Source: Cupriavidus taiwanensis LMG 19424 (GTDB taxonomy: Bacteria; Pseudomonadota; Gammaproteobacteria; Burkholderiales; Burkholderiaceae). From it: a DNA stretch of 64,000 bases. A program made the translations under genes and the position numbers. The notes beneath the pieces were generated by a model. That model had not been told where the DNA came from. It searched no databases and worked only from the letters and a program-made list of their open reading frames with translations. Shown in pieces: positions 1,113 to 18,460 of the stretch; positions within the stretch are counted from its first letter, which is position 1; each line of letters opens with the position of its first letter. The stretch lies in assembly GCF_000069785.1 (NCBI RefSeq), contig NC_010528.1, positions 1,736,001 to 1,800,000 on the forward strand, written 5' to 3'.

Positions 1113-1139
1113 GGTCTCGCGCGGCTCTCTGCGCGAAGC

Positions 1140-1163
1140 AAAAAAAGGCGCCTTGCAGGCGCC
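1140..1163 (-). terminator. Rho-independent terminator, minus-strand orientation
   Basis: Read on the minus strand, GGCGCC-TGCAA-GGCGCC is followed by seven T residues. On the plus strand the hairpin is preceded by the A-run and has no T-run after it, so it works for leftward transcription. The nearest complete minus-strand gene ends at 2512, with no minus gene in between. It lies 28 bases beyond a relic of the guaA stop at 1191, so it may be the original guaA terminator. Confidence 0.75.
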
Positions 1164-1190
1164 CGAGCATTCATTTAACGACCTGGCGGG

Positions 1191-1210
1191 TCACTCCCAC
1201 TCGATCATCA
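1191..1210 (-). repeat. Near-copy of guaA 3' end (candidate attachment site, distal copy)
   Basis: The 20 bases match the last 20 bases of guaA (16841-16860) at 18 positions, in the same orientation, with the first 16 bases identical. Read on the minus strand they encode MIEWE followed by TGA, the same ending as guaA (TIEWE). The 3' end of guaA is an established integration site for tyrosine-recombinase genomic islands. A second copy in direct orientation is what such an insertion leaves. The exact crossover is not determinable. Confidence 0.6.
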
Positions 1211-1532
1211 ACAGATCTTGCAAACCCATGTGGCTAAAGGGAGTTGCGGTGATCGACGTGGGCATTTACCGTCGCTTTCACCGTCATGACCGGAAACTGC
1301 GGGACGGCCTGTAGCGCGGTGACGGCTTCCAATCGATAGTCACCGCACGCGTCCAGCCCGTCATGGAGTGCCTTCCGGCCAATCGTCCAGGGCGCAACCG
1401 CAGCAGCCCTGAATTCACCTACATGGGGGCCGGCCCTATTCCCATAGCTTGACACGGATGCTATCGTGCAGCGCCTGCCGATGCCAACGCGACCACGCCG
1501 GCAAGTCGCTTAAAGGATTGCGTACCACCGCT

Positions 1533-2459
1533 ATGTCGAGACAGATTCCCCCACTGAACCCGCTCAGGGCGTTCGAAGTGGCTGCCCGGCATCTGAGCTT
1601 CACGCGGGCCGCGGAGGAATTGTTCGTCACACCGTCGGCGGTCAGCCACCAGATCAAGGCACTGGAAGAAAGCCTGGGCGTGCAGTTGTTTATCCGCGAC
1701 GCCAAGGCACTGGTCCTGACCCCGGCGGGCACGGCCTACCTGCCCAGCGTGCAACTGGCCTTCAAGCAGCTCGCCGATGCCACGCACCGCCTGCACAGCA
1801 AGGACCGCCCGGCGCTGAAGGTCAACATGCCGCCCACGTTCGCGGTCAAATGGCTGATCCCGCGCATGGACCGCTTCATGAAGGCGCACCCCGATATCGA
1901 CCTGAAGGTGTCGACCTCGAACCATCGCATCGACTTCGAGCGCGACGATTTCGACATGGCGATCCGCTATGGCCGCGGCGATTACCCCGGCCTGCACTGC
2001 GAGCTGTGCATGGCGGTCGAAGTCATCCCCGTGTGCAGCCCGGCGCTGCGGCACGGCCCGCAGCCGCTCGAAACACCGTCCGACCTGAAGCACCATACGC
2101 TGCTGCACGACGACAGCACCTATACGGACGTAAGCAACCCCGACTGGGCAATGTGGCTGGAGCACGCCGGCGTGACCGATGTCGACGCCAGCCGGGGGCC
2201 GTCGTTCTGGCCGAGCCACCTGGTCATCAACGCTGCGCTCAACGGCCTGGGCGTGGCGCTGGTGAAGAAGAACTGGATCGAGCAGGACCTGGCCGAGGGC
2301 CGGCTGGTGCGCCTGTTCGAATCGATCCGGCTGCCGGTCGAATTCTCCTACTTCGTGGTGTTCCCGAAGGAGCGGCTGGAGGATCGCCGCATCCGCAGCT
2401 TCACCGACTGGATCCGCGCGGAAGTGTCGGCGGATCAGCAGCAGCCGTCCCCCGTCTGA
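1533..2459 (+). CDS. LysR-type transcriptional regulator, GcvA-like
   Basis: The protein is 308 residues, the usual length for the family. An N-terminal winged helix-turn-helix is clear at about residues 15-70 (FTRAAEELFVTPSAVSHQI), followed by the periplasmic-binding-like effector domain. The opening IPPLNPLRAFEVAARH is typical of the GcvA subgroup. The ATG at 1533 was preferred over the upstream in-frame 1449 start because homologous regulators begin a few residues before this motif. The gene converges on the thioesterase gene at the end of the leftward catabolic unit. It is the only regulator in the cluster, so it probably controls the divergent promoters near 7.05-7.32 kb in response to a pathway acid. 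That role is inference. Confidence 0.9.
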   Translation: MSRQIPPLNPLRAFEVAARHLSFTRAAEELFVTPSAVSHQIKALEESLGVQLFIRDAKALVLTPAGTAYLPSVQLAFKQLADATHRLHSKDRPALKVNMPPTFAVKWLIPRMDRFMKAHPDIDLKVSTSNHRIDFERDDFDMAIRYGRGDYPGLHCELCMAVEVIPVCSPALRHGPQPLETPSDLKHHTLLHDDSTYTDVSNPDWAMWLEHAGVTDVDASRGPSFWPSHLVINAALNGLGVALVKKNWIEQDLAEGRLVRLFESIRLPVEFSYFVVFPKERLEDRRIRSFTDWIRAEVSADQQQPSPV

Positions 2460-2511
2460 GCACGGCTTGGGGGGCGCGTCCCGCAAGCTGCACGCGCCTG
2501 GCCGCGCGAAG

Positions 2512-2922
2512 TCAGACCGCGACGGGCATTGATGCCGTCTTTTTCTGCACGCGTGCGCGCAAGCGCTCGACATCGACCACGAAGCGGCGATGCGTGCCGC
2601 TGCAAACCCGCTCCACCGCATCGTCGGCGGTCACGCCGAAGGTGACACTGCGGCCATCGATGGCCGTGACCTCGACGTGGATGCGCACCTCGCCGCCCAG
2701 CGGCGTGGCACCGGTGTGCTGCACCGACACCTCCGCGCCCACCGAGCTTTCACCATCCTCGAGAAAGCCTTGCAGGAAATCGAGGCAAGTCTGTTCGATA
2801 TCGCGTACCAGCTCGGGCGTGGCGTAGATGCGCAGGCTCTCGCCAAGAAAATCGATGGTGCGCTGGCGGTCGACCGTCAGCGTGCGCGCGCAGGTCGCGC
2901 CAGGTTGCAATCCGTTCTTCAT
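2512..2922 (-). CDS. Thioesterase family protein (hotdog fold)
   Basis: The protein is 136 residues. It resembles the small hotdog-fold thioesterases related to fluoroacetyl-CoA thioesterase: an ATPELVRDIEQTCLDFL segment, a central GAEVSVQHTGATPLG motif, and a final beta strand FGVTADDAVERVCSGTHRRF. These enzymes hydrolyse small acyl-CoA thioesters in the cytoplasm. The second ATG at 2922 was chosen because AAAGGA sits at proper spacing before it; the frame is also open from an ATG at 2937. It is the last gene of the leftward unit, 84 bases after the amidohydrolase gene. It may release CoA from a pathway intermediate or a dead-end acyl-CoA. Substrate cannot be read from the sequence. Confidence 0.8.
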   Translation of the reverse strand: MKNGLQPGATCARTLTVDRQRTIDFLGESLRIYATPELVRDIEQTCLDFLQGFLEDGESSVGAEVSVQHTGATPLGGEVRIHVEVTAIDGRSVTFGVTADDAVERVCSGTHRRFVVDVERLRARVQKKTASMPVAV

Positions 2923-3006
2923 AAGTGGTCCTTTCAAGTGTAGGGACGAATCCGCCCGTCCCCCACGGCGCTAGCCGGGCGGGTGGCGGATCCTTGCAAT
3001 GCGCTG

Positions 3007-3933
3007 CTACAGGCGATAAAAGCGCGCGGCGTTGTCGTGCCACAGCGCGCGCTGCTGTTCGGGCGGATAGATGGCAATGGCGGCGCGGAAGCCCGCGACG
3101 ATGGTGCCGTAGCTCGCCACCAGGCTGTCCACCGGATAGTTGCTGGCGAACATGCAGCGTTCCGTGCCGAAGATGGCGATGGCGTCGCGGATCACGGGCA
3201 CATTGTCGGCCTGTGTCCATGGTTTTCCCGGCAAACCCAGGCCCGAGACCTTCACGGCGACATTGGGCTGCGCGGCCAGCTCGGCCATCGCGGCACGCCA
3301 GCCGGCCAGGCCGGCTTCACTGCGGTCGGCCGGCAGCCCGGTATGGTTCAGGATCAGCTGCGTGTCCGGGAAGTCCCGTGCCAGCGCGGCCGCCTGATCC
3401 AGGTTCCACCACGGCGCCTGCAGGTCGAAGGACATGCCGTGCCGCGCCAGCAAGGCATAGCCACGACGCCAGCGCTCATCGTCCATCGAGCCCGGCACGC
3501 CGCGCCGCGCATCCTCGCGCCGCGCCGCGGTCACCGGCTTGTTGCGGATGCCGCGCATGATCGCGCAGGCGGCATGGCCCGCCAGCACTTCCTCGACATC
3601 GCCGCGGTCAAGCTGGGCATGGCCGACGATCACCGTAGGCCGACCCGTCTGCGCGGCGAGCTGGGTCAGCCACGCGGTCTCGTCGACAGGATTGGCGCGC
3701 GCCCATTCGGCTTCGACATGCACCGTCTTCACCGGCGCGCAGCCAGCCGTATCGCGGGCGAGATCCTCGGGAAGATAGTTCCTGCGCAGCGCCGAATAGT
3801 CGCCATAGCGGAAGTTCGGCACCGTTTCGTCCTGCAGCCACGGGTACGGGTTGATCGCCAGGTTCCAGAAATGCTGATGCGCGTCGATAAAGGGCTCGAC
3901 GGACGCCGCGCCCGCCGCGGGTGTGTCGCGCAT
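3007..3933 (-). CDS. Amidohydrolase 2 family protein (lactonase-like)
   Basis: The protein is 308 residues and starts with the metal-binding motif IDAHQHFW at about residues 16-23. This is characteristic of the COG3618 branch of the amidohydrolase superfamily, which includes sugar lactonases and 2-pyrone-4,6-dicarboxylate lactonase. Other landmarks are HVEAEWA, LNHTGLP and a final WHDNAARFYRL. At the strand that normally carries the catalytic aspartate (SDWPV in related enzymes) it reads FASNYPV, with Asn265. It overlaps nothing and sits 4 bases after the Bug gene. A second copy of the family is encoded at 11744-12712 with the same Asn. It probably hydrolyses a lactone or related C-O bond in the pathway, but the unusual residue leaves this open. 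Confidence 0.85.
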   Translation of the reverse strand: MRDTPAAGAASVEPFIDAHQHFWNLAINPYPWLQDETVPNFRYGDYSALRRNYLPEDLARDTAGCAPVKTVHVEAEWARANPVDETAWLTQLAAQTGRPTVIVGHAQLDRGDVEEVLAGHAACAIMRGIRNKPVTAARREDARRGVPGSMDDERWRRGYALLARHGMSFDLQAPWWNLDQAAALARDFPDTQLILNHTGLPADRSEAGLAGWRAAMAELAAQPNVAVKVSGLGLPGKPWTQADNVPVIRDAIAIFGTERCMFASNYPVDSLVASYGTIVAGFRAAIAIYPPEQQRALWHDNAARFYRL

Positions 3934-3937
3934 GGGC

Positions 3938-4918
3938 TTACTCCTTGACGCTGATGCGGCCGGCGAGCTGCTTGAACTGCGCCGACTCCTTCACCATGGC
4001 GGCCTGCAGCGTCACGTCATCAGCATAGGTATCGGTGCTGAAGTGCAGCTTCTCCAGCGTCTGGCGCATCACCGGCTCCTGCACGGATTTCGCGATCGCC
4101 GTCTTCAGCACCGCGATCACCTCCGGCGGCGTGCCCTTCGGTGCCGAGATGCCGCGCCAGATCCCCATCGACAGGTCGATATTGCGCTCCTTCAGCGTTG
4201 GCACGTTGTCGAAGCCGCTGACCCGCTTGTCGGCCATCACCGCCAGCACCTTGAGCTTGCCCGCGGCGACATGCGTGAAGACCTCCGCCGTGCTGACCGT
4301 GACCGCGTCGATATGCCCGCCCAGCAGCGCGAGCGTGGCCGGAGCACCGCCGGCATAGGGGATATGGTTGAACTTCGCCCCGGTCTTGTCGGCCAGCGCG
4401 GCGGCTGCCATATGCCACGCGGAGCCCTGCCCGGCATTACCCACGCGGATATTGGCGTCCGGCTTGCGCGCATCGGCGACAAACTGTTCGATCGTGCTCC
4501 ACGGCGCATCGGCCCGGACCGCCACGGCGGCCGGGTCCGCATTCAGGCGTGCGATGGGGATCAGGTCCTGGTAGGTGAACTTGGCCAGCCCGAGGTAATT
4601 CAGGAAGGTCAGCTCGCTGGACGACAGCACCAGCTTGTACCCGTCCGGCTTCGCGTTGACCACTTCGCCCAGGCCTACCGAGCCGGTGGCACCCGGCTTG
4701 TTGATCACCACGATCGGCTGCGGCAGGTGTTTCGCGGCCGCGGCCGACAGCGCGCGCGCCACCACGTCGGCCCCACCGCCCGCCTGCCACGGCACGATCA
4801 GCTCGATGCGCCGGCTCGGGTAGGTTTCCGCGCTTGCCGTGGCCGTACCCCCCAGCAGCCCCAGCACCACGGCGGCCGGCATCGCCCAGCGCCGCATCAG
4901 CGAACGTGACATCGTCAT
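3938..4918 (-). CDS. Bug/TctC-family tripartite tricarboxylate transport substrate-binding protein
   Basis: The protein is 326 residues. A Sec signal peptide with a twin-positive start ends near residue 32 (ATASA-ETYPS). It is followed by the family hallmark YPSRRIELIVPWQAGGGAD and later NKPGATGSVGLGEV and FNHIPYAGGAPA. These periplasmic proteins bind carboxylates and usually pass them to a TctA/TctB membrane pair. No tctA or tctB is in the window, so this is an orphan Bug, as is common in Burkholderiales. ATG 4918 was chosen for its GGAGACGACC ribosome site. It lies between the CoA-transferase and amidohydrolase genes in the leftward unit. It may capture the pathway substrate. Confidence 0.9.
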   Translation of the reverse strand: MTMSRSLMRRWAMPAAVVLGLLGGTATASAETYPSRRIELIVPWQAGGGADVVARALSAAAAKHLPQPIVVINKPGATGSVGLGEVVNAKPDGYKLVLSSSELTFLNYLGLAKFTYQDLIPIARLNADPAAVAVRADAPWSTIEQFVADARKPDANIRVGNAGQGSAWHMAAAALADKTGAKFNHIPYAGGAPATLALLGGHIDAVTVSTAEVFTHVAAGKLKVLAVMADKRVSGFDNVPTLKERNIDLSMGIWRGISAPKGTPPEVIAVLKTAIAKSVQEPVMRQTLEKLHFSTDTYADDVTLQAAMVKESAQFKQLAGRISVKE

Positions 4919-4964
4919 GGTCGTCTCCTGTCTTTTATCGGTATAGATGATGGCCGCGGTGCGC

Positions 4965-6197
4965 TCAGGCGGCGCCGCGTTCCAGTTCCTGTGCCCGGGC
5001 CGGTGCGCCGAACGCCCCCTGCGCCCGCAGCCGCGTGACGGTGGCTGCGTCCAGCCCGAACTCGCCCAGCACCTCATCGGTATGCTGGCCCAGCAGCGGC
5101 GCCGGATAGCGCACCTGCTGCGGCGTGCCGCTCAGCTTGACCGGAAAGCCCAGCGCCTTGACCCGCCCCTCGACCGGATGATCGATCTCCAGCACCATGT
5201 CCCGCGCCACCGCCTGTTCGCTGGCCAGCGCTTCGTCGTAGGTGAAGATCGGTGCCGCCGGCACACCGGCCGCCAGCAGCGCATCGACCCATTCCGCCGC
5301 CGGCTTGCGCGCGAATTCTGCCTCAATTTCAGGAATCAGCGCGGCACGGTTGCGGATGCGGGCGGCGTTGTCGGTAAAGCGCGGGTCGGCAAGCAGGTCG
5401 GGCCGCTCGATCACCTCGCACAGCGCGGCCCACAGCTTGGGGTTGGCCGCGCCGATCACAAAGTGCCGGTCGGCGGCGCGCACCGCCTGGTATGGCGCGC
5501 TCATGCGGTTGGCGCTGCCGATCGGCACCGGCACGTCGCCGGTGCCCCAGAACTCGGCCGACTCCCATACCGACAGCCCCAGCGCCGTCTCGAACAGCGA
5601 CGCATCCACGTACTGCCCCTGTCCGGAATGCTCGCGCCCCATCAGCGCGCTGAGCACGCCATACGCGGTGAACAGCCCCGCCCCCAGGTCGGCGATCGGC
5701 ACGCTGGCCTTGACCGGCGGCGCGTCCGGGTGGCCCATCACGCTCATCACGCCCGACATGGCCTGCGCGATCAGGTCCAGCCCCGGGCGCCGCGACCACG
5801 GCCCGGTCTGGCCGAACCCGGAGATGCTGGCATAGACCAGGCGCGGATTGATCTCGCGCAGCACCGCGTAGTCGATCTTCAGGCGAGCGGCCACGCCCGG
5901 ACGGTTGTTCTCCACCAGCACGTCGGCGCCGCGCACCAGTTCATAGAAGGCCTCGAGGCCGGCCGGGTTCTTCAGGTCGATCTCGACACTGCGCTTGTTG
6001 CGGTTCAGCGCCAGGAAGCCGCCGCTGTCATCGCCCTTGAGCCGGAAGCCCATCGACTTGCGGGTCTGGTCGCCGGCGCCCGGCGCTTCGACCTTGATGA
6101 CGTCGGCGCCCATGTCGCCCAGCAGCATGCAGCAGAACGGACCCGCCATGATCTGGCTGACGTCCAGGACCTTGATTTTCGATAACGGCAAATTCAT
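4965..6197 (-). CDS. CaiB/BaiF-type (family III) CoA-transferase
   Basis: The protein is 410 residues. It begins with the family signature (LSKIKVLDVSQIMAGPF) and has GDMGADVIKVEAPG, NRNKRSVEIDLK and VLVENNRPG. The aspartate that forms the acyl anhydride in formyl-CoA transferase aligns with Asp170 (IADLGAG). Length and motifs are complete, so it should be active. It transfers CoA from an acyl-CoA to a free carboxylic acid in the cytoplasm. It is the second gene of the leftward unit after the crotonase gene. The likely job is activation of the imported acid so that the crotonase can act on it. The acid itself is not identifiable. Confidence 0.9.
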   Translation of the reverse strand: MNLPLSKIKVLDVSQIMAGPFCCMLLGDMGADVIKVEAPGAGDQTRKSMGFRLKGDDSGGFLALNRNKRSVEIDLKNPAGLEAFYELVRGADVLVENNRPGVAARLKIDYAVLREINPRLVYASISGFGQTGPWSRRPGLDLIAQAMSGVMSVMGHPDAPPVKASVPIADLGAGLFTAYGVLSALMGREHSGQGQYVDASLFETALGLSVWESAEFWGTGDVPVPIGSANRMSAPYQAVRAADRHFVIGAANPKLWAALCEVIERPDLLADPRFTDNAARIRNRAALIPEIEAEFARKPAAEWVDALLAAGVPAAPIFTYDEALASEQAVARDMVLEIDHPVEGRVKALGFPVKLSGTPQQVRYPAPLLGQHTDEVLGEFGLDAATVTRLRAQGAFGAPARAQELERGAA

Positions 6198-6268
6198 GGA
6201 TACCACCTGAGGTTGGGGGCGGCCGCATGGAAATGGCGGCGCCGCGATGCTTTGGATAAAAGGTGCTG

Positions 6269-7048
6269 TCAACGGCCCACGAACTGCGGCCGGGTCTTGT
6301 CGATGAAGGCGCGGTGGCCGATGCGAAAATCCTCGGTATCGAAGCAGGCATAGGACTCGGCATGCTCTTCCGGACGCAGCGGCGTGGGATCCAGCAGCCT
6401 GCGCACGAACTGCTTGTGCCAGCGCGCTACCAGCGGCGCGCCGGCGGCGATGCGCCGTGCCGCCGCGTAGGCTTCGTCCGGCACGGCCTCGTCCGCCACC
6501 ACGCGATTGACCAGGCGCTTGTGCAGGGCCTCGTCGGCATCGAATACGCGGCCCTCCAGGACAATCTCCAGCGCGGTCGCCGGTCCCGCCAGCGCCACCA
6601 GCCCGCCCAGTTCGCCATACGACATCACCAGCCCGAGCCGGTTGACCGGCACGCCGAAGCGGCTGGACCTGCCGCAGATGCGCAGGTCGCACATCGACGC
6701 GATTTCCAGCCCGCCGCCGACGCAGGCGCCCTGGATCAGCGCGATGGTCGGGTGCCGGCATTCGGCGATGGCGCGCATGGTGGCGTTGGTGATCTCGCCG
6801 TACTGCTGCGCCTGCGCGGCGTTGGCGCGCATGGTGTCGAACTCGGCGATGTCGGCGCCGGCGGCGAAGGCCTTGTCCCCGGCGCCGCGCAGCACCACGC
6901 AGCGCAATGTGTCGTCGGCCGACAGGCCCTGGATGGCTTCGGTCAGGCCCTGCCACATGGACAGGTCCATGGCATTGAGCTTGTCCGGATTGTTCAGCGT
7001 GATGGTGGCGACCTGCGCGTCGCGCTCGATCAGGATGGGTTGTCTCAT
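6269..7048 (-). CDS. Enoyl-CoA hydratase/isomerase (crotonase) family protein
   Basis: The protein is 259 residues. It has the crotonase fold motifs: the oxyanion-hole segment KAFAAGADIAEF at about 60-70 and GACVGGGLEIASMCDLRI at 107-124. The first catalytic glutamate of true hydratases is present (Glu115). The second position, normally in a GxPE motif, is Val135 (FGVPVNRLGL), so a simple hydratase reaction is not assured. An isomerase, decarboxylase or thioester hydrolase role is possible. ATG 7048 is the first gene of the leftward unit, facing the divergent promoter region. It would act on the CoA ester made by the neighbouring CoA-transferase. Confidence 0.85.
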   Translation of the reverse strand: MRQPILIERDAQVATITLNNPDKLNAMDLSMWQGLTEAIQGLSADDTLRCVVLRGAGDKAFAAGADIAEFDTMRANAAQAQQYGEITNATMRAIAECRHPTIALIQGACVGGGLEIASMCDLRICGRSSRFGVPVNRLGLVMSYGELGGLVALAGPATALEIVLEGRVFDADEALHKRLVNRVVADEAVPDEAYAAARRIAAGAPLVARWHKQFVRRLLDPTPLRPEEHAESYACFDTEDFRIGHRAFIDKTRPQFVGR

Positions 7049-7323
7049 GGTTGTCGTTGGTGTGGAGGAGGCCCGGCGGGTGCGGGCGGTGGTCCGGAAT
7101 CCGGCTGGTCTGCGCCAGTCTAGGGCCCGCGCCGCGCGCCGCAAAACGAGAAAATCTCAGCGCCGTTTCAAGAAAAACTAGGCGTCCGGTGCTGTGAGTT
7201 TTTCTTGGGCAGCCTTCAAGTAATTCCACGTTGTGACCCGCGGGCCTTGTTCCTAGACTTCGTCACCAATGCAGCCGGCCCGCCCCACGGCGCCCTGCTC
7301 ACCCCACACAGCATGGAGACAAG
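7049..7323. promoter_or_regulatory. Divergent control region of the catabolic cluster
   Basis: This 275-base spacer separates the leftward crotonase unit from the rightward alcohol dehydrogenase unit and must hold both promoters. It contains an 11-bp perfect inverted repeat (7169-7207, listed separately). It is locally A/T-richer than the surrounding genes between 7141 and 7240. I could not fix -35/-10 pairs with confidence. The LysR protein encoded at 1533-2459 is the obvious candidate to bind here. Confidence 0.6.
7169..7207. promoter_or_regulatory. Perfect 11-bp inverted repeat, candidate operator
   Basis: CAAGAAAAACT (7169-7179) is repeated as its exact reverse complement AGTTTTTCTTG (7197-7207), with 17 bases between. 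The half-site centres are 28 bases apart, close to three helical turns, so a dimer or tetramer of a LysR-type protein could bind both on one face. The position is between two divergent units. A hairpin role is less likely because it would lie in leaders in both directions. Confidence 0.55.
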
Positions 7324-8463
7324 ATGGCCCTGATCCACTACATCACCCAGATCCAGATCGACTTCGGCGCGATCGGGCTGCTGGCCCAGGAATGCGAACG
7401 CATCGGCATCACGCGGCCGCTGGTGGTCACCGACGCCGGCGTCAAGGCCGCCGGCATCGTGCAGCGCGTGCTGGAGCAGCTGCGCCCCGGCTGCGAGGCG
7501 GTGATCTACGACGGCACGCCGTCCAACCCGACCGAAGCCGCCATGCGCGAGGCCATGCGCCTCTATAGCGAGTACCGTTGCGACGGCATCATCGCGGTGG
7601 GCGGCGGCTCGCCGATCGACCTGGCCAAGGGGGTGGCGGTCTGCGCCACCCACGACGGCCCGCTGCGCCAGTTCGCCGCGATCGAGGGCGGCGTGGCGAG
7701 GATCACGGCCGCCACCGCACCGGTGATCGCGATCCCCACCACGGCCGGCACCGGCAGCGAAGTCGGCCGCGGCGCCGTGCTGATCCTCGACGACGGCCGC
7801 AAGGTCGGCGTGCTGTCGCCCTACCTGGTGCCGCGCGTGGCGATCTGCGATCCTGAGCTGACGCTGGGCCTGCCGCCGATGCTGACGGCGGCCACCGGCA
7901 TGGATGCCATCGCGCATTGCCTGGAAACCTTCATGGCGCCGGCCTTCAACCCGCCCGCCGACGGCATCGCGCTCGATGGCCTGCGCCGCGCCTGGCTGCA
8001 TATCGAGCGCGCGCGCCGCGATCCGCAGGACCGTGCCGCGCGCCTGGCCATGATGAGCGCATCGATGCAGGGCGCGCTCGCTTTTCAGAAGGGGCTGGGC
8101 TGCGTGCACAGCCTGAGCCATGCGCTGGGCGGGCTGATGCCGACGCTGCACCACGGCACCCTGAACGCCGTGCTCCTGCCGGCGGTGATCCGCTTCAACG
8201 CCGGCGCGCCGTCGATGCAGGCCGATGACAAGCTGGCCCGCATCGCGCTGGCCATGGGACTATCCGAGGCCAGCGCCATCGCCCCGGCCATCACCGACAT
8301 GAACCGGCGCCTGGGCCTGCCCGCCGGCCTGCGCGAGATGGGCGTCGATCCGGCCCTGTTCCCGCGCGTCATCGACTACGCGCTGGCCGACCACTGCCAC
8401 AAGACCAACCCGCGCGAAGCCAGCGCCGAGGACTACCTGGCGCTGCTGCAGGCTTCGCTGTAA
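7324..8463 (+). CDS. Iron-containing alcohol dehydrogenase (group III)
   Basis: The protein is 379 residues, full length for the family. It has the nucleotide-binding motif GGGSPIDLAKGVA at about 96-108 and IPTTAGTGSEV. The metal site is formed by Asp194, His198, His262 and His276 or His277 (GMDAIAHCLETF, GCVHSLSHALGG, LHHGTLN). The N-terminus (YITQIQIDFGAIGLL) resembles 4-hydroxybutyrate dehydrogenase-like members. It would interconvert a hydroxy acid or alcohol with the aldehyde or ketone using NAD(P). GGAGACAAG precedes the ATG. It is the first gene of the rightward unit. Substrate is unassigned; maleylacetate reductase and lactaldehyde reductase are relatives and cannot be excluded. Confidence 0.9.
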   Translation: MALIHYITQIQIDFGAIGLLAQECERIGITRPLVVTDAGVKAAGIVQRVLEQLRPGCEAVIYDGTPSNPTEAAMREAMRLYSEYRCDGIIAVGGGSPIDLAKGVAVCATHDGPLRQFAAIEGGVARITAATAPVIAIPTTAGTGSEVGRGAVLILDDGRKVGVLSPYLVPRVAICDPELTLGLPPMLTAATGMDAIAHCLETFMAPAFNPPADGIALDGLRRAWLHIERARRDPQDRAARLAMMSASMQGALAFQKGLGCVHSLSHALGGLMPTLHHGTLNAVLLPAVIRFNAGAPSMQADDKLARIALAMGLSEASAIAPAITDMNRRLGLPAGLREMGVDPALFPRVIDYALADHCHKTNPREASAEDYLALLQASL

Positions 8464-8508
8464 GGCCACCCCCTTCCCTACACCAACAACAACATCAGGA
8501 GACAACAC

Positions 8509-9474
8509 ATGCGACGTCGCACCTTCCTGTGCGCGGGCGCGGCCGCCTTGGCCACGCCGCTGGCAGCCTGGTCCCAGGCACTGCCGACCGGCCCGATCCG
8601 CATCATCGTGGGGTTCCCGCCCGGCGGCGGCACCGACGTGATGGCGCGCGTGATCGCGCAGCAGCTCTCGGCGCTGTGGCGGGTGCCGGTCATCGTCGAG
8701 AACCGGCCTGGCGCCGCCGGCGTGGTCGCCGCCGAGTACACCGCGCGCCAGGCGCCGGACGGCACCACGCTGCTGATGACCAATATCAGCAACCATGCCA
8801 TCGCGCCCAGCCTGTACCCGAAGCTGGGCTATTCGGTGGAGAAGGACTTCACCCCGCTCATGCTGGTCGGCGTCACGCCCAACCTGCTGATCTGCCATAC
8901 CGGCGGGCGCGCGCGCTCGGTGGCCGACGTGGTCGCGCTGTGCCGCAGCCAGCCGGGCAAGATCACCTTCGGCTCGTCCGGCGCCGGCGCGGCGCAGCAC
9001 CTGGCGCTGGAGATGTTCAAGCTGCGCGCCGGCGTGGATGCGCTGCACGTGCCGTATCGCGGCTCGGCGCCGATGCTGACCGACCTGATCGGAGGACAGA
9101 TCGACTTCAGCTTCGAGACCATGACTTCCGCCACGCCGCAGATCCAGGGCGGCAAGGTGGTGGCGATCGCGCAAACGCGCCCGCGCCGCGCGGCCAGCTA
9201 TCCCAACGTGCCCACGCTGGCGGAATCGGGTTTTCCCGGCTTCGATGCCGGCACCTGGTACGGGCTGGTCGGCCCCGCCGGGCTGCCCGCGCCCATGGTC
9301 CAGCGCATGAATGCAGACCTGAACAAGGTGCTGGCGCTGCCCGACGTGGCGGGCAAGCTTGCCGGCTTCGGTGCCGAGGACGGCGGCGGCAGCGCGGCGC
9401 GCTTCGCGCAGTTCATCGCCACGGAGCGCGCCAAGTGGGCGCGCGTGGTCAAGGACGCCAACGTGAAGGTGTGA
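8509..9474 (+). CDS. Bug/TctC-family substrate-binding protein (second copy)
   Basis: The protein is 321 residues with a short Arg-rich signal peptide (MRRRTFLCAGAAALATPLAAWSQA is the leader region), possibly Tat-compatible. The hallmark PIRIIVGFPPGGGTDVMAR follows, then ENRPGAAGVVAAEY and HVPYRGSAPMLTDL. It binds a carboxylate in the periplasm. No TctA/TctB membrane partner is encoded nearby. It differs clearly in sequence from the Bug protein at 3938-4918, so it is unlikely to be a recent duplicate. Its stop is one base before the start of the FAH-family gene, which points to tight co-expression. AGGAG precedes the ATG by 8 bases. Confidence 0.9.
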   Translation: MRRRTFLCAGAAALATPLAAWSQALPTGPIRIIVGFPPGGGTDVMARVIAQQLSALWRVPVIVENRPGAAGVVAAEYTARQAPDGTTLLMTNISNHAIAPSLYPKLGYSVEKDFTPLMLVGVTPNLLICHTGGRARSVADVVALCRSQPGKITFGSSGAGAAQHLALEMFKLRAGVDALHVPYRGSAPMLTDLIGGQIDFSFETMTSATPQIQGGKVVAIAQTRPRRAASYPNVPTLAESGFPGFDAGTWYGLVGPAGLPAPMVQRMNADLNKVLALPDVAGKLAGFGAEDGGGSAARFAQFIATERAKWARVVKDANVKV

Positions 9475-9475
9475 C

Positions 9476-10666: not shown

Positions 10667-10740
10667 TATCCGCCCCCGCACGGGGCGCCCCAGAGCCCGG
10701 CACTCATCGACCGGGCCGCATCACAAACCCAGGAGACACC

Positions 10741-11733
10741 ATGAAACACGTTATCCCGCATATCGTGCTGGCAGCGCTATTGTCCGTTGCCGGCGTGGCA
10801 CAGGCACAGGCACAGACGCAGGCACCGGTAAAGCTGCGCTTCGCCCATACCGTTCCGGAAACCGATTCGCAGCACCTGGCCGCGCTCGCCTTCAGCAAGA
10901 AGGTCAGGGAGCGCACCCAGGGCGGCGTCGAGATCCAGGTCTTTGCCAATAGCCAGCTCGGCAACGACACCACGCTGGTCACCGGCGTGCGCAGCGGCAC
11001 CATCGATATCGGCGCCACCGGCAATCCCTTCGTCACCGGCCTGGCACCACGCCTGAACGTGCTCGACCTGCCCTACCAGTTCGAGGACGGCCCCTCGGCC
11101 TACAAGGTGCTGGACGGCCCGGTCGGCCGTTCATTGCTGGAAGAACTGGGCGCCCACCGCATCAAGGGCCTGGCCTTCTGGGAGATCGGCTTCCGCAGCC
11201 TGGGCAACAACAAGCGCCCGGTCAACAAGGCCGAGGACATCCGCGGCCTGAAGATCCGCACCACGCCCAACCCCTCGCATATCAAGGCCTTCCAGCTGCT
11301 GGGCGCGAGCCCGCAGCCGATGCCGTTCGCCGAGGTCTTCGGCGCGCTGGAATCCGGCGCGGTCGACGGCCAGGAGAATCCGCCCACGCTGATGGTCTCG
11401 GCCAAGATGTACGAGGTGCAGAAGTACGTGTCGATGACGCGCCATGCCTATACCGCGCTGGTGGTGCTGATGAACAAGGCGAAGTTCGACGGGCTCAGGC
11501 CCGAGTACCAGAAGGTACTGCTGGAAGAGGCCGCTTCCGCCGCCACCTACCAGCGCAAGCTCAACACCGACAACGAGGCCGCGGCCATCGCCACGCTGCG
11601 CGCCAGGGGCGTGCAGGTCAACGAGCATCCCGACAACGCCGGCATCCGCAAGGTGGTGCGCGAGGAGACGCGCCATCTGTTCGTGCAAAAAAACGGCGAC
11701 GCCGTGCTGCGCGCCATGGACGCGCAGCGCTAG
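10741..11733 (+). CDS. TRAP transporter substrate-binding protein, DctP family
   Basis: The protein is 330 residues with a signal peptide ending near residue 26 (VAQAQAQTQA). Family landmarks are LRFAHTVPETDSQHLAAL, GNDTTLVTGVRSGTIDI, GLKIRTTPNPSHIKAF and FGALESGAVDGQENP. The conserved Arg in KIRTTPN binds the substrate carboxylate in studied members. The protein captures an organic acid in the periplasm for the DctQ/DctM membrane pair encoded just downstream (12742 and 13259). An amidohydrolase gene is inserted between dctP and dctQ. AGGAGACACC precedes the ATG. Because dctM is frameshifted, transport through this system may be lost. Confidence 0.92.
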   Translation: MKHVIPHIVLAALLSVAGVAQAQAQTQAPVKLRFAHTVPETDSQHLAALAFSKKVRERTQGGVEIQVFANSQLGNDTTLVTGVRSGTIDIGATGNPFVTGLAPRLNVLDLPYQFEDGPSAYKVLDGPVGRSLLEELGAHRIKGLAFWEIGFRSLGNNKRPVNKAEDIRGLKIRTTPNPSHIKAFQLLGASPQPMPFAEVFGALESGAVDGQENPPTLMVSAKMYEVQKYVSMTRHAYTALVVLMNKAKFDGLRPEYQKVLLEEAASAATYQRKLNTDNEAAAIATLRARGVQVNEHPDNAGIRKVVREETRHLFVQKNGDAVLRAMDAQR

Positions 11734-11743
11734 GAGGCCGGCC

Positions 11744-12712
11744 ATGTCCACCTCGTCCACCTCGTCCACCTCGTCCGCTTCGTCCACCTTGCCCGCCGCC
11801 ATCGTCGATAGCCACCACCACCTGTGGCGCCTCGGCCCGGCACGCTATCCCTGGCTGCAGGAGCGTTATGACGCCGCAGCGTTTTTTCTTGGCGACTACA
11901 CCGCGCTGCGGCAGGACTTCGCTCCTGCCGACTACCTGCGCCAGTGGGACGGCCTGCCCCTGGCCGCCAGCGTCCACGTGGAAGCCGAGCGGCATGCCGA
12001 CGAATCGGTGGCCGAGACCGCATGGCTGCATCAGGTACACGCGCGCCACGGCTTTCCCAACGCGGTGGTGGCGCATGCCGACTTCAACAGCGACACGCTG
12101 GCGGACCAGCTGCGCGCGCACCAGGCCTTCCCGCTGGTGCGGGGCGTGCGGTGCAAGCCGCGCACCAGCCGGACGGCGGATGACAGCGTGCGCGGGCAGC
12201 CCGGCACGCTGCAGGACCCGCGCTGGCAGTCCGGGCTGCAGCGGCTGGCCGAGCACGGCCTGGCGTGGGACCTGCGGGTGCCGTGGTGGCACCTGGAGGA
12301 AGCCGCCGAGGCGATCGCCGCGGTGCCGGGGCTCGACGTGGTGGTGGAACACACCGGCCTGCCGTGGGACCGCACCGAAGCCGGCCTGTCCGGCTGGCGC
12401 CGCGGGCTGGCGGCGCTGGCCAGCCTGCCCGGGGTGCACCTGAAGCTGTCCGAGTTCGGCTTGCCGGGCGCGTCGTGGGATCGCGCCGGCAATGCCGCCG
12501 TCATCCGCCAGGCGCTGGAGATCTTCGGCTGGCAGCGCTGCATGTTCGCCAGCAACCTGCCCGTGTCGGGGCTGCGCGCATCGCTGCATGAAATCGTCAA
12601 TACCGTAGCCGCCGCGCTGGAAGGCCTGCCCAACGCCGCCGCGCACGCGGTGTGGCACGACAACGCCATGCGCTTTTACAGGATCGGGGCGCCCGTGGCG
12701 AGCCTGCGCTGA
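11744..12712 (+). CDS. Amidohydrolase 2 family protein with Ser/Thr repeat N-terminus
   Basis: The protein is 322 residues. Its first 15 residues are a Ser/Thr stretch made by a 9-base repeat, then comes the family start IVDSHHHLWRLGPARYPWL. It shares SVHVEAER, VEHTGLPWDRTEAGLSGW and the ending WHDNAMRFYR with the protein at 3007-3933, so the two are paralogues. The usual catalytic Asp is again Asn (Asn271 in CMFASNLPV). It starts 11 bases after dctP in the rightward unit. It probably hydrolyses a lactone-like or cyclic intermediate. Two divergent copies in one cluster suggest two substrates or two steps. The N-terminal repeat is outside the conserved domain. Confidence 0.85.
   Translation: MSTSSTSSTSSASSTLPAAIVDSHHHLWRLGPARYPWLQERYDAAAFFLGDYTALRQDFAPADYLRQWDGLPLAASVHVEAERHADESVAETAWLHQVHARHGFPNAVVAHADFNSDTLADQLRAHQAFPLVRGVRCKPRTSRTADDSVRGQPGTLQDPRWQSGLQRLAEHGLAWDLRVPWWHLEEAAEAIAAVPGLDVVVEHTGLPWDRTEAGLSGWRRGLAALASLPGVHLKLSEFGLPGASWDRAGNAAVIRQALEIFGWQRCMFASNLPVSGLRASLHEIVNTVAAALEGLPNAAAHAVWHDNAMRFYRIGAPVASLR
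11747..11791 (+). repeat. 9-base coding repeat (TCCACCTCG units)
   Basis: Three exact copies of TCCACCTCG are followed by two variant copies (TCCGCTTCG and TCCACCTTG). They encode Ser-Thr-Ser units directly after the start codon of the amidohydrolase. Slippage by whole units would keep the frame. Confidence 0.8.
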
Positions 12713-12741
12713 GTCCCCGTCCCCCCCAGGAGTCCTCAATC

Positions 12742-13242
12742 ATGAACCGAATTACGCTGCGCCTGGTCCAGGGCGCGATGGTCGCCATGATGGCCGCCAT
12801 GATCGTGCTGGTCTTCGGCAACGTGGTCCTGCGCTACGTCTTCAATTCCGGCATTGCCTTCTCCGAGGAAGCCTCGCGCTTCATCTTCATGTGGCTGACG
12901 CTGACCGGCGCCCTGCTGGTGATGCATGACAAGGCCCACCTGGGGATGTCCACCGTGGTGTCGCGGCTGGGCGAGACCGGGCAGCGTGCCTGCCGGCTGC
13001 TCGCCGACGCGGGCGCCCTGGCCTGCTGCCTGCTGCTGGCCCATGGCGCCTGGCAGCTGGTGGCGATCGGCATGGACGACCGCGCGCCCGTCACCGGCGT
13101 GCCGCTGGGCGTGGTCTATGCCTGCCTGCTGGTGTGCAGCGTGGGCATGGCGGCGATGCTGCTGCACGGGCTGTGGCGCCTCGCCAGCGGCCGCATGGCA
13201 CAGCATGAACTGGTGCCGCAGTCCGGCGCCTCCGGCGAATAA
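12742..13242 (+). CDS. TRAP transporter small membrane subunit, DctQ family
   Basis: The protein is 166 residues with four predicted membrane helices, as in other DctQ proteins. It has the conserved features NVVLRYVFNSGIAFSEEASRF and FMWLTLTGALLV in the first half. It forms the small inner-membrane subunit that couples the DctP binding protein to the DctM channel. The ATG at 12742 follows CAGGAG by 9 bases. dctM starts 16 bases downstream. The gene itself looks intact, but its partner DctM is interrupted, so the complex may not form. Confidence 0.9.
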   Translation: MNRITLRLVQGAMVAMMAAMIVLVFGNVVLRYVFNSGIAFSEEASRFIFMWLTLTGALLVMHDKAHLGMSTVVSRLGETGQRACRLLADAGALACCLLLAHGAWQLVAIGMDDRAPVTGVPLGVVYACLLVCSVGMAAMLLHGLWRLASGRMAQHELVPQSGASGE

Positions 13243-13258
13243 GCGCAAGGAGCCAGCC

Positions 13259-14535
13259 ATGACCATCTTTGTCTTTGTCGGCTCGCTGCTGGGCGCGATG
13301 TCGCTCGGCATGCCCATCGCCTTTGCACTGCTCGCCTCCGGGGTCGCGCTGATGCTGCACCTGGGCAACTTCGATACGCAGATCCTCGCGCAGAACATGC
13401 TCGAGGGCGTCAACAACTATCCGCTGATGGCGGTGCCGTTCTTCATGCTGGCGGGCGAGTTGATGAACGCCGGCGGCCTGTCACGGCGCATCGTGCGCGT
13501 CGCCGACGCGGCGGTCGGGCACGTCCGTGGCGGGCTGGGCTACGTGGCGATCATCGCGGCGACGGTGGTGGCCAGCATTTCCGGCTCGGCCGTGGCCGAT
13601 ACCGCCGCGGTCGCAGCGCTGCTGATCCCGATGATGCGCAATGCCGGCTACAACGTGCCGCGCGCGGCGGGGCTGATCGCGGCGGGCGGCATCATCGCGC
13701 CGGTGATCCCGCCGTCGATCGCATCGTGGTGTTTGGCGTGGTCGCGCAGGTGTCGATCACCAAGCTGTTCCTCGCCGGCATCGCACCCGGCGCGATGATG
13801 GCGCTGACGCTCGCCGTCACCTGGCACTTCTGTGCGCGCAAGGAGAAGCTGGCGCCCACCGAACCCTTCAATGCCCGCCGCCTGGCTAGGGCCGCGCTCG
13901 ACGGCATCTGGGCGCTGGTGCTGCCAGTGGTGATCATCGGCGGCATGAAGATCGGCGCGTTCACGCCGACCGAGGCGGCAGTGGTGGCCGTGGTCTACGC
14001 CATGGTGGTCGGCCGCTTCGTCTACGGCGAACTGAAGCTGCGCGCGCTGCCGGAACTGATCGTCACCGCGGCCAAGACCTCCGCCACGGTGCTGTTCCTG
14101 GTCGCCTGCGCGCTGGTGTCGGCATGGCTGATCACCATCGCCAATATCCCGGCGCAGGTGACCGACCTGCTCGAGCCCTTCATCGACAACAAGATCCTGC
14201 TGATGTTCGTCATCATGATCCTGGTGATCGTGGTGGGCACCGCGCTCGACCTGATGCCGACGGTGCTGATCATGACCCCGATCCTGATGCCGGTGATCAC
14301 CAAGGCGGGCATCGACCCGGTGTATTTCGGCGTGATGTTCGTGCTCAACAACGCCATCGGCCTGCTGACGCCGCCGGTGGGCACGGTGCTCAACGTCGTG
14401 GCGGGCACCTCGCGCTGCAGCCTGGACAGCGTGATCGGCGGCGTCTGGCCGTTCCTGCTGAGCCTGACCGCGCTGATGTTCCTGTTCGTGCTGTTCCCGC
14501 AGCTGATCCTGGTGCCGGCCGCATGGCTGCACTAA
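13259..14535 (+). pseudogene. TRAP transporter large permease DctM, frameshifted
   Basis: The first part (13259 to about 13720) encodes a normal DctM N-terminus: FVGSLLGAMSLGMPIAFAL, VPFFMLAGELMNAGG, ISGSAVADTAAV and IIAPVIPPSIA. The frame is then lost. The continuation, from VVFGVVAQVSITKLFLAGI, is in the +1 frame and runs to 14535 (NNAIGLLTPPVGTVLNVV near the end). One base appears to be missing in GCATCGTGGTG at 13721-13731; a T inserted to make GCATTCGTGGTG would restore I-A-F-V-V-F-G and give 425 residues, the normal size. A sequencing error is possible. If real, TRAP transport by this cluster is inactive unless ribosomal frameshifting rescues it. Confidence 0.85.
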
Positions 14536-14575
14536 GGCCAGGCGCGCTCCACCTTCCATCCTTGCAGGACACAAG

Positions 14576-15742
14576 ATGTCATCCCTCAGCGATATCAACG
14601 AGATCGAGGACCTGCGCCGGCTCGCCCGGCAGCGGGTGCCGCGCATGTTCTATGAATACGCCGACTCCGGTTCGTGGACCGAGTCCACCTACCGCGCCAA
14701 CCAGCGCGAATTCGGCAACATCCTGCTGCGCCAGCGCGTGGCCGTAAATATCGGCGAGCGCCGCCTCGCCACGCGGATGCTGGGCCAGGACGTCGCCATG
14801 CCGGTGGCGATCGCCCCGACGGGGCTGGCCGGCATGCAGCACGCCGACGGCGAGATCCTGGCCGCCCGCGCCGCGCGCGATTTCGGCGTGCCGTTCACGC
14901 TGTCCACGGTCAGCATCTGCTCGATCGAGGACGTGGCCGAGGCCACCGGCGGGCATCCGTTCTGGTTCCAGCTCTATGTGATGCGCGACCGCGCCTTCGT
15001 CGAACGCCTGATGGACCGCGCCCGCGCCGCGGGCTGCCCGGCGCTGGTGCTGACGCTGGACCTGCCGGTCAGCGCGCAGCGCCACAAGGACCTGCGCAAC
15101 GGCCTGTCGGCGCCGCCGCGGCTGACGCCGTGGAACCTGCTCAACATGATGGGCAAGCCGCGCTGGTGCCTGGGCATGCTGGGCACGCGCCGCCGCACCT
15201 TCGGCAACATCATCGGCCATGTGCGGGGCGTCGACGACATGAGCTCGCTGGCCGACTGGTCGAGCCGCCAGTACGACCCGACGCTGGACTGGGACGACGT
15301 GGCATGGATCCGCCGCCGCTGGCCCGGCAAGCTGGTGCTCAAGGGCATCCAGGATGTCGAGGATGCGCGGCTGGCGTGCCAGTCGGGCGCGGACGCGCTG
15401 ATCGTGTCAAACCACGGCGGCCGCCAGCTCGACGGCGCGCCGGCATCGATCCGCGCCCTGCCCGCCATCGCGCAAGCCGTGGGCGAGCGCATCGAAGTCC
15501 ATATGGATGGCGGCATCCGCTCCGGGCAGGACGTGTTGAAGGCGGTCGCGCTCGGCGCCCGTGGCGTCTATATCGGCCGGCCGATGCTGTATGGGCTGGG
15601 CGCCATGGGACAGGCCGGCGTGACGCGCGCGCTGGAGATCATCCGCAAGGAACTCGACCTGACCATGGCCTTCTGCGGCCACACCGACATCCGCGCGGTC
15701 GGCACGGACATCCTGCTGCCGCCGCATCCGCCCGCCTCGTAG
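14576..15742 (+). CDS. FMN-dependent alpha-hydroxy acid dehydrogenase (lactate/mandelate dehydrogenase-like)
   Basis: The protein is 388 residues. It shows the full FMN-binding barrel: PRMFYEYADSGSW at 21-33, MPVAIAPTGLAGMQHADGE, FQLYVMRDR, LVLKGIQDVEDARL and the active-site signature SNHGGRQLDGAP, in which His280 is the base. It oxidises an L-2-hydroxy acid to the 2-oxo acid and usually passes electrons to the quinone pool. It starts 40 bases after dctM. Its product class suits the FAH-family enzyme at 9476. Lactate, mandelate or another 2-hydroxy acid are all possible substrates, so no symbol is given. Confidence 0.9.
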   Translation: MSSLSDINEIEDLRRLARQRVPRMFYEYADSGSWTESTYRANQREFGNILLRQRVAVNIGERRLATRMLGQDVAMPVAIAPTGLAGMQHADGEILAARAARDFGVPFTLSTVSICSIEDVAEATGGHPFWFQLYVMRDRAFVERLMDRARAAGCPALVLTLDLPVSAQRHKDLRNGLSAPPRLTPWNLLNMMGKPRWCLGMLGTRRRTFGNIIGHVRGVDDMSSLADWSSRQYDPTLDWDDVAWIRRRWPGKLVLKGIQDVEDARLACQSGADALIVSNHGGRQLDGAPASIRALPAIAQAVGERIEVHMDGGIRSGQDVLKAVALGARGVYIGRPMLYGLGAMGQAGVTRALEIIRKELDLTMAFCGHTDIRAVGTDILLPPHPPAS

Positions 15743-15796
15743 TTTTCTTGCCGTAGCCACAAACCAGACGCAAACAAACCAGACAGGAGACAACCG

Positions 15797-16408
15797 ATGA
15801 TGATCCTTCGCAAGACCCTGCGCGCCCGCCAGGCGCTCGCCACGTTCGCAGCGGCCACCGCCGTCGGCGCCGCCGCCCTGATGCCCGCCGCAGCCGCGGC
15901 GCAGCCGGCGCCATCCGCCGAATGCAAGGCGGCTCTGGACGCCCGTGCCCAGAACCCCAACTACCCGCGCGACAGCGTGCCGCGCTACATCAAGACCCCC
16001 ACCGGCTACCTGCTGGTGCTGCGCATGGGCGACAACGTGTTCGAGCAGATCGAAGCCTTTGCCATCTGCGAGAAGGTGCCCAGCGCGAGCCTGTCCGCGA
16101 TCGGCTTCGCCAACGTCACGTTCGGCTTCTGGGATGCCGCGAAGAAGCAGTTCAACCCGCGCACCTTCCGCAACGTGGAGATGGCCAGCATCGTCGGCAG
16201 CCTGGCGTGGAAGGAAGGCAAGCCGTCGATCCATGCGCATGGCGTGGCCGGTGACAGCAGCTTCGACACGTACGGCGGCCATATCCTGTCGATGGAGGTC
16301 GGCACCGGATCACTGGAGGTAACGGTCGTCACGCATCCACGGCGACTTGAACGTGCGACTGATCCGCGTATCGGTGCCAATGTGCTGGGATTGCACGATA
16401 CGCACTAG
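15797..16408 (+). CDS. Exported PCC/DUF296-domain protein
   Basis: The protein is 203 residues. It has a signal peptide (about 1-36, ending AAAAAQPAPS), followed by a PCC-type domain (formerly DUF296). That domain is seen in GYLLVLRMGDNVFEQIEAF, SASLSAIGFANVTFGFWD and SIHAHGVAGDSSFDTYGGHI, the last giving the two histidines often found near a bound metal or ligand. PCC domains are usually cytoplasmic or fused to AT-hooks in plants, so an exported one is unusual. It is the last gene of the rightward unit, 54 bases after the hydroxyacid dehydrogenase. AGGAGACAACCG precedes the ATG. It may bind a pathway molecule in the periplasm. Function is unknown. Confidence 0.8.
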   Translation: MMILRKTLRARQALATFAAATAVGAAALMPAAAAAQPAPSAECKAALDARAQNPNYPRDSVPRYIKTPTGYLLVLRMGDNVFEQIEAFAICEKVPSASLSAIGFANVTFGFWDAAKKQFNPRTFRNVEMASIVGSLAWKEGKPSIHAHGVAGDSSFDTYGGHILSMEVGTGSLEVTVVTHPRRLERATDPRIGANVLGLHDTH

Positions 16409-16840
16409 GTACGTTTCTGTGCGGCTTGGCAGATGCAAATGGAAGTCTGCCAGCCTTGGGTGCCGGCAGACGCTGCGCGAGCACGCACTCGCTGCAAGGC
16501 AGAGACCGGCTGCCACCGAAAGGACGTGCGGCGCGCCTTCAAGTCTCGCCGCAGCGGCCCGACGAAATCCAGCCGTTCGAAGGAAGCCGGGCATGGCCTC
16601 CAAACCGGTGGCTCAAAAAAAGGGGCAGCCAACAGAACCAGGACGTCGTCCTTGCGTAGGCGGGGATGACGAGTCTTCTTAGCCGCTCTAACCGCTGGAA
16701 GCACCTATCGCGGGTTGAGTCCGCCATCTGATAGCCCCGATCTTGCCGGACAGTGCCAACCGAGAATAAAAAAGCCCGCATTTTCGCGGGCTTCGAGGTG
16801 CTTTCGTGTTATTTAGTGCCGGCTCATGCCGGACCCGGGA
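16409..16840. other. Intergenic region between the PCC gene and guaA
   Basis: This 432-base stretch carries the guaA terminator at 16765-16793. A degenerate copy of the REP-like hairpin found at 23956-24037 lies at about 16647-16675. Several short frames on both strands lack ribosome sites, motifs or coherent codon use. No integrase remnant was recognised, although this is where an integrase of a guaA-targeted island would be expected. Confidence 0.5.
16765..16793 (-). terminator. Rho-independent terminator of guaA
   Basis: On the minus strand GCCCGC-GAAAAT-GCGGGC is followed by TTTTTTATTC. It lies about 50 bases after the guaA stop codon and ends leftward transcription from guaA. Confidence 0.85.

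Positions 16841-18434
<1,594 letters not shown>

Positions 18435-18460
<26 letters not shown>

Follow-up and report, generated by a model that had tools for sequence, protein, structure and literature searches.

Tyrosine-integrase island scars at the guaA 3′ end flank a catabolic gene cluster of Cupriavidus taiwanensis: a probable decayed island remnant

Introduction

The 3′ end of guaA, the gene for GMP synthase, is a known target of islands moved by tyrosine recombinases. The element GIsul2 inserts there at GAGTGGGA, and its excision has been demonstrated (PMC9376610). In Cupriavidus metallidurans, the 97 kb element CMGI-3 is tabulated with guaA as a flanking gene (PMC7019866, table entry) and is assigned to the Tn4371 family and linked to CO2 fixation in a second report (PMC3384475), whereas the 60 kb element ICERsy1 of Ralstonia syzygii is stated to be integrated into guaA itself (PMC7385641). 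Here, we analyze a 64 kb stretch of the genome of Cupriavidus taiwanensis LMG 19424 (NC_010528.1, positions 1,736,001 to 1,800,000; "the window", numbered from its first letter), in which a cluster of catabolic genes lies beside guaA. We conclude that the interval from 1191 to 16856 is, with a probability of about 85%, the decayed remnant of at least one tyrosine-integrase island inserted at the 16-bp guaA 3′ end.

Compared by description, GIsul2 and its relatives share with the window the guaA 3′ end, the GAGTGGGA site and att (attachment) sites at the ends, but GIsul2 has an integrase, was shown to excise and carries resistance genes, whereas the window contains a 32-bp integrase-like scar and catabolic genes. 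CMGI-3 resembles the window in its genus, its place beside guaA and its metabolic cargo, but it is large and is listed with trb/tra conjugation genes, none of which is present among the cluster genes of the window. ICERsy1 shares the guaA site, comes from a related genus and carries cargo that includes aromatic-compound metabolism; unlike the window, it is described as an integrative and conjugative element with conserved conjugation features. A literature search with partial coverage, based on titles and the openings of abstracts, returned no account of the cluster as a guaA island relic. The site and the mechanism are already known, as the preliminary description of this DNA had pointed out for the guaA 3′ end and as GIsul2 illustrates, and the window represents a degraded member of this group with a plausible multi-island history.

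A direct repeat of the guaA 3′ end

The guaA gene of the window (16841–18460, minus strand) is intact and codes for a GMP synthase of 539 amino acids. Its 3′ end, read on the plus strand as TCACTCCCACTCGATCGTCG (16841–16860), recurs in the same orientation as TCACTCCCACTCGATCATCA at 1191–1210, with 18 of 20 bases matching and the first 16 identical, exactly as the preliminary description had it. The direct repeat at the guaA 3′ end contains GAGTGGGA. From motif searches, shuffles and an alignment of the att sites, we define the last 16 guaA bases including the stop codon as the near att core (attR; 16841–16856, minus strand) and their exact copy as the far att core (attL; 1191–1206, minus strand). 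When translated in the direction of guaA, the far copy yields ...LLMIEWE-stop in frame, so that the IEWE-stop noticed previously is also correct.

Searching the whole window for the 16-mer core with up to two mismatches returned two sites, both of them repeat copies, whereas none of 100 dinucleotide shuffles of the window contained two such sites and one contained a single site. Across the 6.48 Mb genome to which the window belongs (G000), the 19-base pattern TCACTCCCACTCGATCRTC, again with up to two mismatches, likewise occurs twice, at the repeat copies, and 1191–1206 is the sole other copy of the last 16 guaA bases in this genome. The earlier judgement that a 16-base match was unlikely to arise by chance is borne out by these controls, and the genome-wide repeat search proposed at that time showed that the repeat is not scattered.

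We extended the search to 60 genomes of the genus, G000 included, where the core pattern GATNGARTGGGARTRA gave 70 exact matches in 59 genomes and its reversed control none. While 59 of these matches represent guaA itself, 11 are extra copies spread over 8 genomes. All ten extra cores sharing a contig with guaA are located downstream of it on the same strand, as is characteristic of a core used in site-specific attachment; the eleventh (in G074) is on a contig other than that of guaA and has no placement relative to it. The repeat at 1191 is an att scar. Two genomes contain two successive extra cores 3′ of guaA each, at 93564–112443 of contig C177 in G079 and at 2013737–2029669 of contig C3 in G030, as expected for stacked islands.

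The left flank and its empty counterpart

Outside the far core, the window continues with a former guaA downstream tail (1113–1190, minus strand), which we call B-type; the labels A-type, B-type, type I and type II were coined in this analysis. The tail has a counterpart in Cupriavidus sp. WGlv3 (G078), a genome that follows the window collinearly between about −15400 and 1206, with 93.2% identity, and then leads directly into guaA. Window positions 1113–1206 are 95% identical to the G078 stretch joining a putative lipoprotein gene to guaA. Aligning the att sites, we found that attB of G078 consists of guaA, core and B-type tail, attR of the window of guaA, core and A-type arm, and attL of the window of type I arm, core and the same B-type tail as in G078. 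Hence, a relative with the same flank contains an empty attB.

The B-type tail contains a terminator-like stem at 1146–1164, whose counterpart in G078 lies 26 bases past the guaA stop codon and is followed by the lipoprotein gene. This is the empty site that had been predicted beforehand, with the guaA stop codon followed by the terminator (then placed at 1140–1163) and two lipoprotein genes. Because guaA of G078 runs straight into the B-type tail and the lipoprotein gene, the stem at 1146–1164 once stood downstream of guaA, before the insertion. Its role as a terminator is predicted from the sequence pattern; the pattern scan found one such stem versus 0.6 expected, and 50 of 200 shuffled sequences folded as well.

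The putative lipoprotein gene outside the left scar (477–1112, plus strand) is 98% identical in G078, where it is situated directly downstream of guaA, and is neighbored by a small open reading frame (ORF) at 55–444. We take its product to be a lipoprotein from its N-terminus; a Pfam search with the product gave no match. The gene is accessory, with relatives in 8 of the 60 genomes, that of the window included, and in five of these eight (G069, G062, G076, G028 and G079) the relative is on a contig other than that of guaA. The conserved gene farther left is a homologue of uppP/bacA (PF02673). Close uppP orthologues (at least 71%) are present in 16 of the 60 genomes and lie beside guaA in ten of them, at intervals of 0.9 kb (G071), 1.7 kb (G078), 4 kb (G070), 8.2 kb (G069), 8.4 kb (G083), 9.7 kb (G014), 17.3 kb (G000), 26.7 kb (G008), 46 kb (G015) and 52 kb (G062).

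Island arms and an integrase scar

Inward of the far core, we identified the element arm of attL (type I; 1207–1286, minus strand), which together with the core is 82% identical to a sequence of G020 over 96 bases. It contains two GACGGT repeats, visible as ACCGTC on the plus strand at 1268–1273 and 1280–1285, which may represent arm-type integrase sites. A probe of positions 1191–1290, for which at most 15 candidates per genome were scored and matches of at least 73% over at least 79 bases were counted, matched 14 places outside the window, distributed over 11 of the remaining 59 genomes; G002, G006, G011 and G018 gave shorter matches, which were left out of the count. The match in G020 is the best of these and lies 60 kb from guaA, the remaining 13 places show 73–79% identity, and conservation stops at 1286 in the alignment. 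A full-length tyrosine integrase of 424 amino acids with Arm-DNA-bind_3 and Phage_integrase domains starts 0.3 kb past guaA in G020. With the integrase at guaA and attL 60 kb away, this arrangement resembles a complete type I island. The pairing of a type I attL with a type I integrase was viewed in four genomes (G020, G031, G003 and G015), a sample too small to generalize from. Between the type I arm and the cluster lies left junction DNA (1287–1389), and a blastn search with positions 1207–1420 against the compared loci (E up to 1e-3) returned no match covering it other than that of the window itself.

On the other side, guaA is followed by an A-type arm (16740–16840, minus strand), identified by its similarity to G021 and G014 and containing a predicted terminator at 16771–16794, which was recognized by pattern scan and folding (4 of 200 shuffled sequences folded as well). 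The arm is 73.6% identical over 106 bases to the G021 stretch between guaA and an integrase gene, 73% identical to G015 over 122 bases including the guaA end, and 97.3% identical over 73 bases to the guaA tail of G014. It is abutted by a scar of 32 bp left from a tyrosine integrase gene of the P4 type (16708–16739, minus strand), which agrees in 28 of 32 bases with the integrase genes of G015 and G021, while its peptide RGYQMADSTRD matches the G015 integrase in 11 of 11 residues. Considering both strands of the 64 kb, this is the best place for the G015 and G021 integrase genes, the next best reaching 25 of 32 bases, and the integrase genes of G020, G031 and G009 gave no match at 16708–16739. 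Compared with G015, the junction of scar and A-type arm can be described as a single deletion of about 0.5 kb. Right junction DNA (16407–16707) connects the scar with the cluster; positions 16400–16509 show 75% similarity to the terminal part of the G078 cluster copy. The preliminary description had stated that no integrase was found, which is correct for an integrase gene but overlooked the integrase-like scar. Because an intact integrase is absent beside guaA, the locus is filed as an island relic and not as a working island. A tRNA gene as att site was discarded, as the window does not contain any tRNA.

Across the 60 genomes, integrase matches 3′ of guaA were near full length in 6 and partial in 10; for 15 of the 60, the searchable sequence past guaA measured 1.5 kb or less. 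Typing of the 60 guaA tails (160 bases each, E up to 1e-3) yielded 16 type I-like, 13 A-like and 4 B-like tails and 27 of none of these kinds. Among the 13 genomes with A-type tails, a near full-length integrase is present in two (G015 and G021) and a partial one in two others (G014 and G063). G015 represents the type II case, with the order guaA, A-type arm, integrase, 27.8 kb, core copy and B-type tail; the 27.8 kb stretch looks like a whole guaA island, whose far core carries a different arm and has the B-type tail on its outer side. The corresponding loci of G015 are L129 (about 10330) and L035 (about 16760–18280), with a full-length integrase of the second type. In G014, an integrase fragment of the other type comes after the A-type tail. 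The arms beside both cores of the window are thus common to integrase-bearing islands, the left one being shared with G020 and the right one with G015 and G021, and they belong to two different subfamilies.

The catabolic cluster and its distribution

The catabolic cluster extends from about 1390 to about 16406, as delimited by comparison with 12 relatives, and 15 genes were called in it. All 15 match metabolic, regulatory or transport Pfam families, in agreement with the accessory metabolism previously assigned to the DNA between the repeat copies. They code for a LysR regulator (above the cut-off of the GcvA subfamily model), an FlK-type thioesterase, two amidohydrolases, a type III CoA-transferase, an enoyl-CoA hydratase, an FAH-like protein, an FMN-dependent alpha-hydroxyacid dehydrogenase of the L-lactate type, a PCC-domain protein of unassigned role, two TctC receptors, a TRAP transporter (DctP/Q/M) and a 4-hydroxybutyrate dehydrogenase of the Fe-ADH type (7324–8463, plus strand), which scored 648.6 bits with NCBIfam model NF058672 at a cut-off of 500. 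The dctM gene for the large subunit of the TRAP transporter (13250–14535 with an approximate start, plus strand) is frameshifted near 13,720 and appears as two ORFs in different frames, the second half matching positions 154–413 of PF06808. The frameshift is absent in all 12 aligned relatives, and TRAP transport may be impaired by it, unless it represents a sequencing error. The left limit of the cluster fell at 1385–1431 in 10 of the 12 relatives (1524 in G026, 1533 in G011) and the right limit at 16406–16407 in 9 of them (16383 in G011, 16447 in G008, 16509 in G078); inner parts of the cluster are missing in G066, G030 and G019.

With a 5.4 kb probe, for which five candidates per genome were scored, we obtained near full-length matches in 11 of the 60 genomes, at 89–100% identity in G000, G033, G008, G003, G078, G073, G025, G035 and G026, 80% in G011 and 75% in G004. 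Partial matches were found in G019, G066, G030, G028, G027, G005, G018 and G080, and most other matches look like single related genes. In G033, G003, G025, G035, G066 and G019, the cluster adjoins homologues of a G000 region about 40–44 kb left of the window; both cluster flanks were checked in G033 and G003, and G000 has a 178-bp gap at this place (contig C1, about 1691600–1691780, about 44 kb left of the window). Among the ten genomes with uppP near guaA, the cluster lies inside the uppP–guaA interval in G000 and G008 only. A 31-bp match of window positions 1406–1436 to many genomes was dismissed as chance or minor; the one place followed (G000, C1:1960450) is in an ORF that is presumably a cytochrome oxidase (ccoN-like) gene.

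The cluster of G000 is 96.4% identical to that of G033 and 95.4% to that of G008, whereas guaA with 1.5 kb upstream is 91.3% identical to G033 and 97.1% to G008; the left flank is 92.5% identical between G000 and G008. The cluster tree joins G000 first to G033 (support 0.928) and next to G008 (0.999), whereas the core tree groups G000 with G014 and G071 (0.962), both trees being unrooted. Because of this conflict and the identities of 96.4% versus 91.3% to G033, the cluster was exchanged horizontally between lineages, and it may have reached the G000 lineage from one near G033. We also considered a relocation of the cluster within the G000 chromosome and did not adopt it, since the similarity to G033 favors an exchange between lineages. 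Farther left, a stretch of 6 kb (window coordinates −52698 to −46452; L172, L171) is 94% identical to G033 with a neighbor at 82%, and it may be another recombined or strongly conserved block.

Discussion

The insertion and subsequent decay of a guaA-targeted tyrosine-recombinase island, as proposed in the preliminary description, is supported by the empty site of G078 and with the restriction of the repeat to its two copies. We suggest that the order before the insertion was that of G078, with uppP, the lipoprotein genes, the B-type tail and guaA. A tyrosine integrase would have crossed over within the 16-bp guaA 3′ end, and the integration would have rebuilt the last guaA codons on one side, with a second 16-bp core remaining on the opposite side, while the guaA-side arm, judging from its sequence, would have supplied a new guaA terminator. 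The integrase gene would later have eroded to the 32-bp scar and any transfer genes would have been lost, leaving an interval that is now fixed. Most probably, two islands were stacked at guaA and lost their inner ends. The catabolic cluster between the scars was swapped horizontally among lineages.

Several observations weigh against this reading. No complete integrase gene is present beside guaA in the window, and the 32-bp scar is so short that a tblastn search of the whole window gave E = 0.057, though as the top match. The G000 relatives of the G020 integrase are 26–30% identical; there are three of them, none near guaA, and they give no sign of a close recombinase acting from another locus, as had been suggested earlier. 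Nine of the 13 genomes with A-type tails, that of the window included, have no integrase match, four of these nine having at most 1.5 kb of searchable DNA, and G003 also has an A-type tail (87.7% over 73 bp) on the outer side of a far core; therefore, the A-type arm taken alone could be an older guaA tail. The far core of G015 matches its own guaA end at 13 of 16 bases. No transfer gene (relaxase or mating-pair formation) was found by Pfam among the 15 called cluster genes, and the cluster is not foreign in composition, with a G+C content of 68.5% versus 67.5% for 16841–64000; the two junction stretches have 58.5% and 61.1%. Finally, the two arms differ in type, the left one agreeing with G020 (type I) and the right one, like the scar, with G015 and G021 (type II).

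This last point also bears on the earlier view of the 15.6 kb as one element bounded by the repeat copies, which we could not confirm; the arms are from different subfamilies, the cluster limits at about 1390 and 16406 differ from the repeats, the cluster occurs elsewhere without att copies, and G008 contains it at this interval but has no left scar. Because a single island should have left a matched pair of arms, a stack of at least two islands is favored, and the interval is probably such a collapsed stack. An exchange of modules between islands is the alternative to stacking.

Whether the scars and the cluster belong together is a separate matter, and we lean towards the cluster having been carried in by an island. 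According to a competing explanation, the scars are genuine but the cluster entered the uppP–guaA hotspot by other recombination. This is the less probable of the two. In its favor, the interval varies from 0.9 to 52 kb in ten genomes and differs in gene content among G008, G014 and G071; the cluster of G008 lies directly beside uppP, at 72 bp from where the flank match stops and without a left scar; the six genomes with the cluster at other addresses contain no exact core on its contig except that of guaA; and the cluster begins and ends at positions other than those of the scars. It is countered by the finding that G000 and G008, the two genomes with the cluster at this site, each retain a type I arm, G000 at attL and G008 on the guaA side (80% over 134 bp to G066), and that their clusters are close in the tree, together with that of G033. 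The simplest account of these two genomes would be a complementary decay of one cluster-bearing type I island, of which G000 kept the left arm and G008 the guaA-side arm; we put it forward tentatively because 16 of the 60 genomes have a type I guaA-side arm, and G073, G062, G070 and G083 among them lack the cluster at this place.

The origin of the far copy itself is less contested. It could have arisen by a duplication of guaA or by recombination without a site-specific recombinase, and the adjacency of the lipoprotein gene and tail to guaA in G078 shows how recombination with a differently arranged strain could displace a guaA end. A displacement by homologous recombination should have brought along a longer piece of guaA, but the identity to guaA stops at the core and is followed by an arm common to islands elsewhere, which makes this origin very improbable. 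Apart from its shortness of 16 bp, nothing speaks for a chance match, which we regard as practically negligible in view of the shuffle and genome controls, the empty site and the conserved arm.

Beyond the interpretation of the interval as a decayed island remnant, it is conceivable, with slightly less than even odds, that the guaA 3′ end of Cupriavidus serves as a site where islands dock and are discarded serially, the window preserving two or more stacked islands in fossil form, with arms of two integrase subfamilies, and the present guaA terminator being a domesticated island part. If so, each island would restore the last guaA codons and bring a new terminator, islands would pile up and lose their integrases and inner ends, and metabolic cargo would stay behind between arms of different parentage. 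The locus shows how a block with a 4-hydroxybutyrate dehydrogenase gene may have come to adjoin an essential gene, and the series of empty, integrase-bearing, partly decayed and fully decayed genomes traces the way from a mobile island to a fixed cluster at a single locus. Incoming islands may also have replaced the guaA transcription terminator repeatedly.

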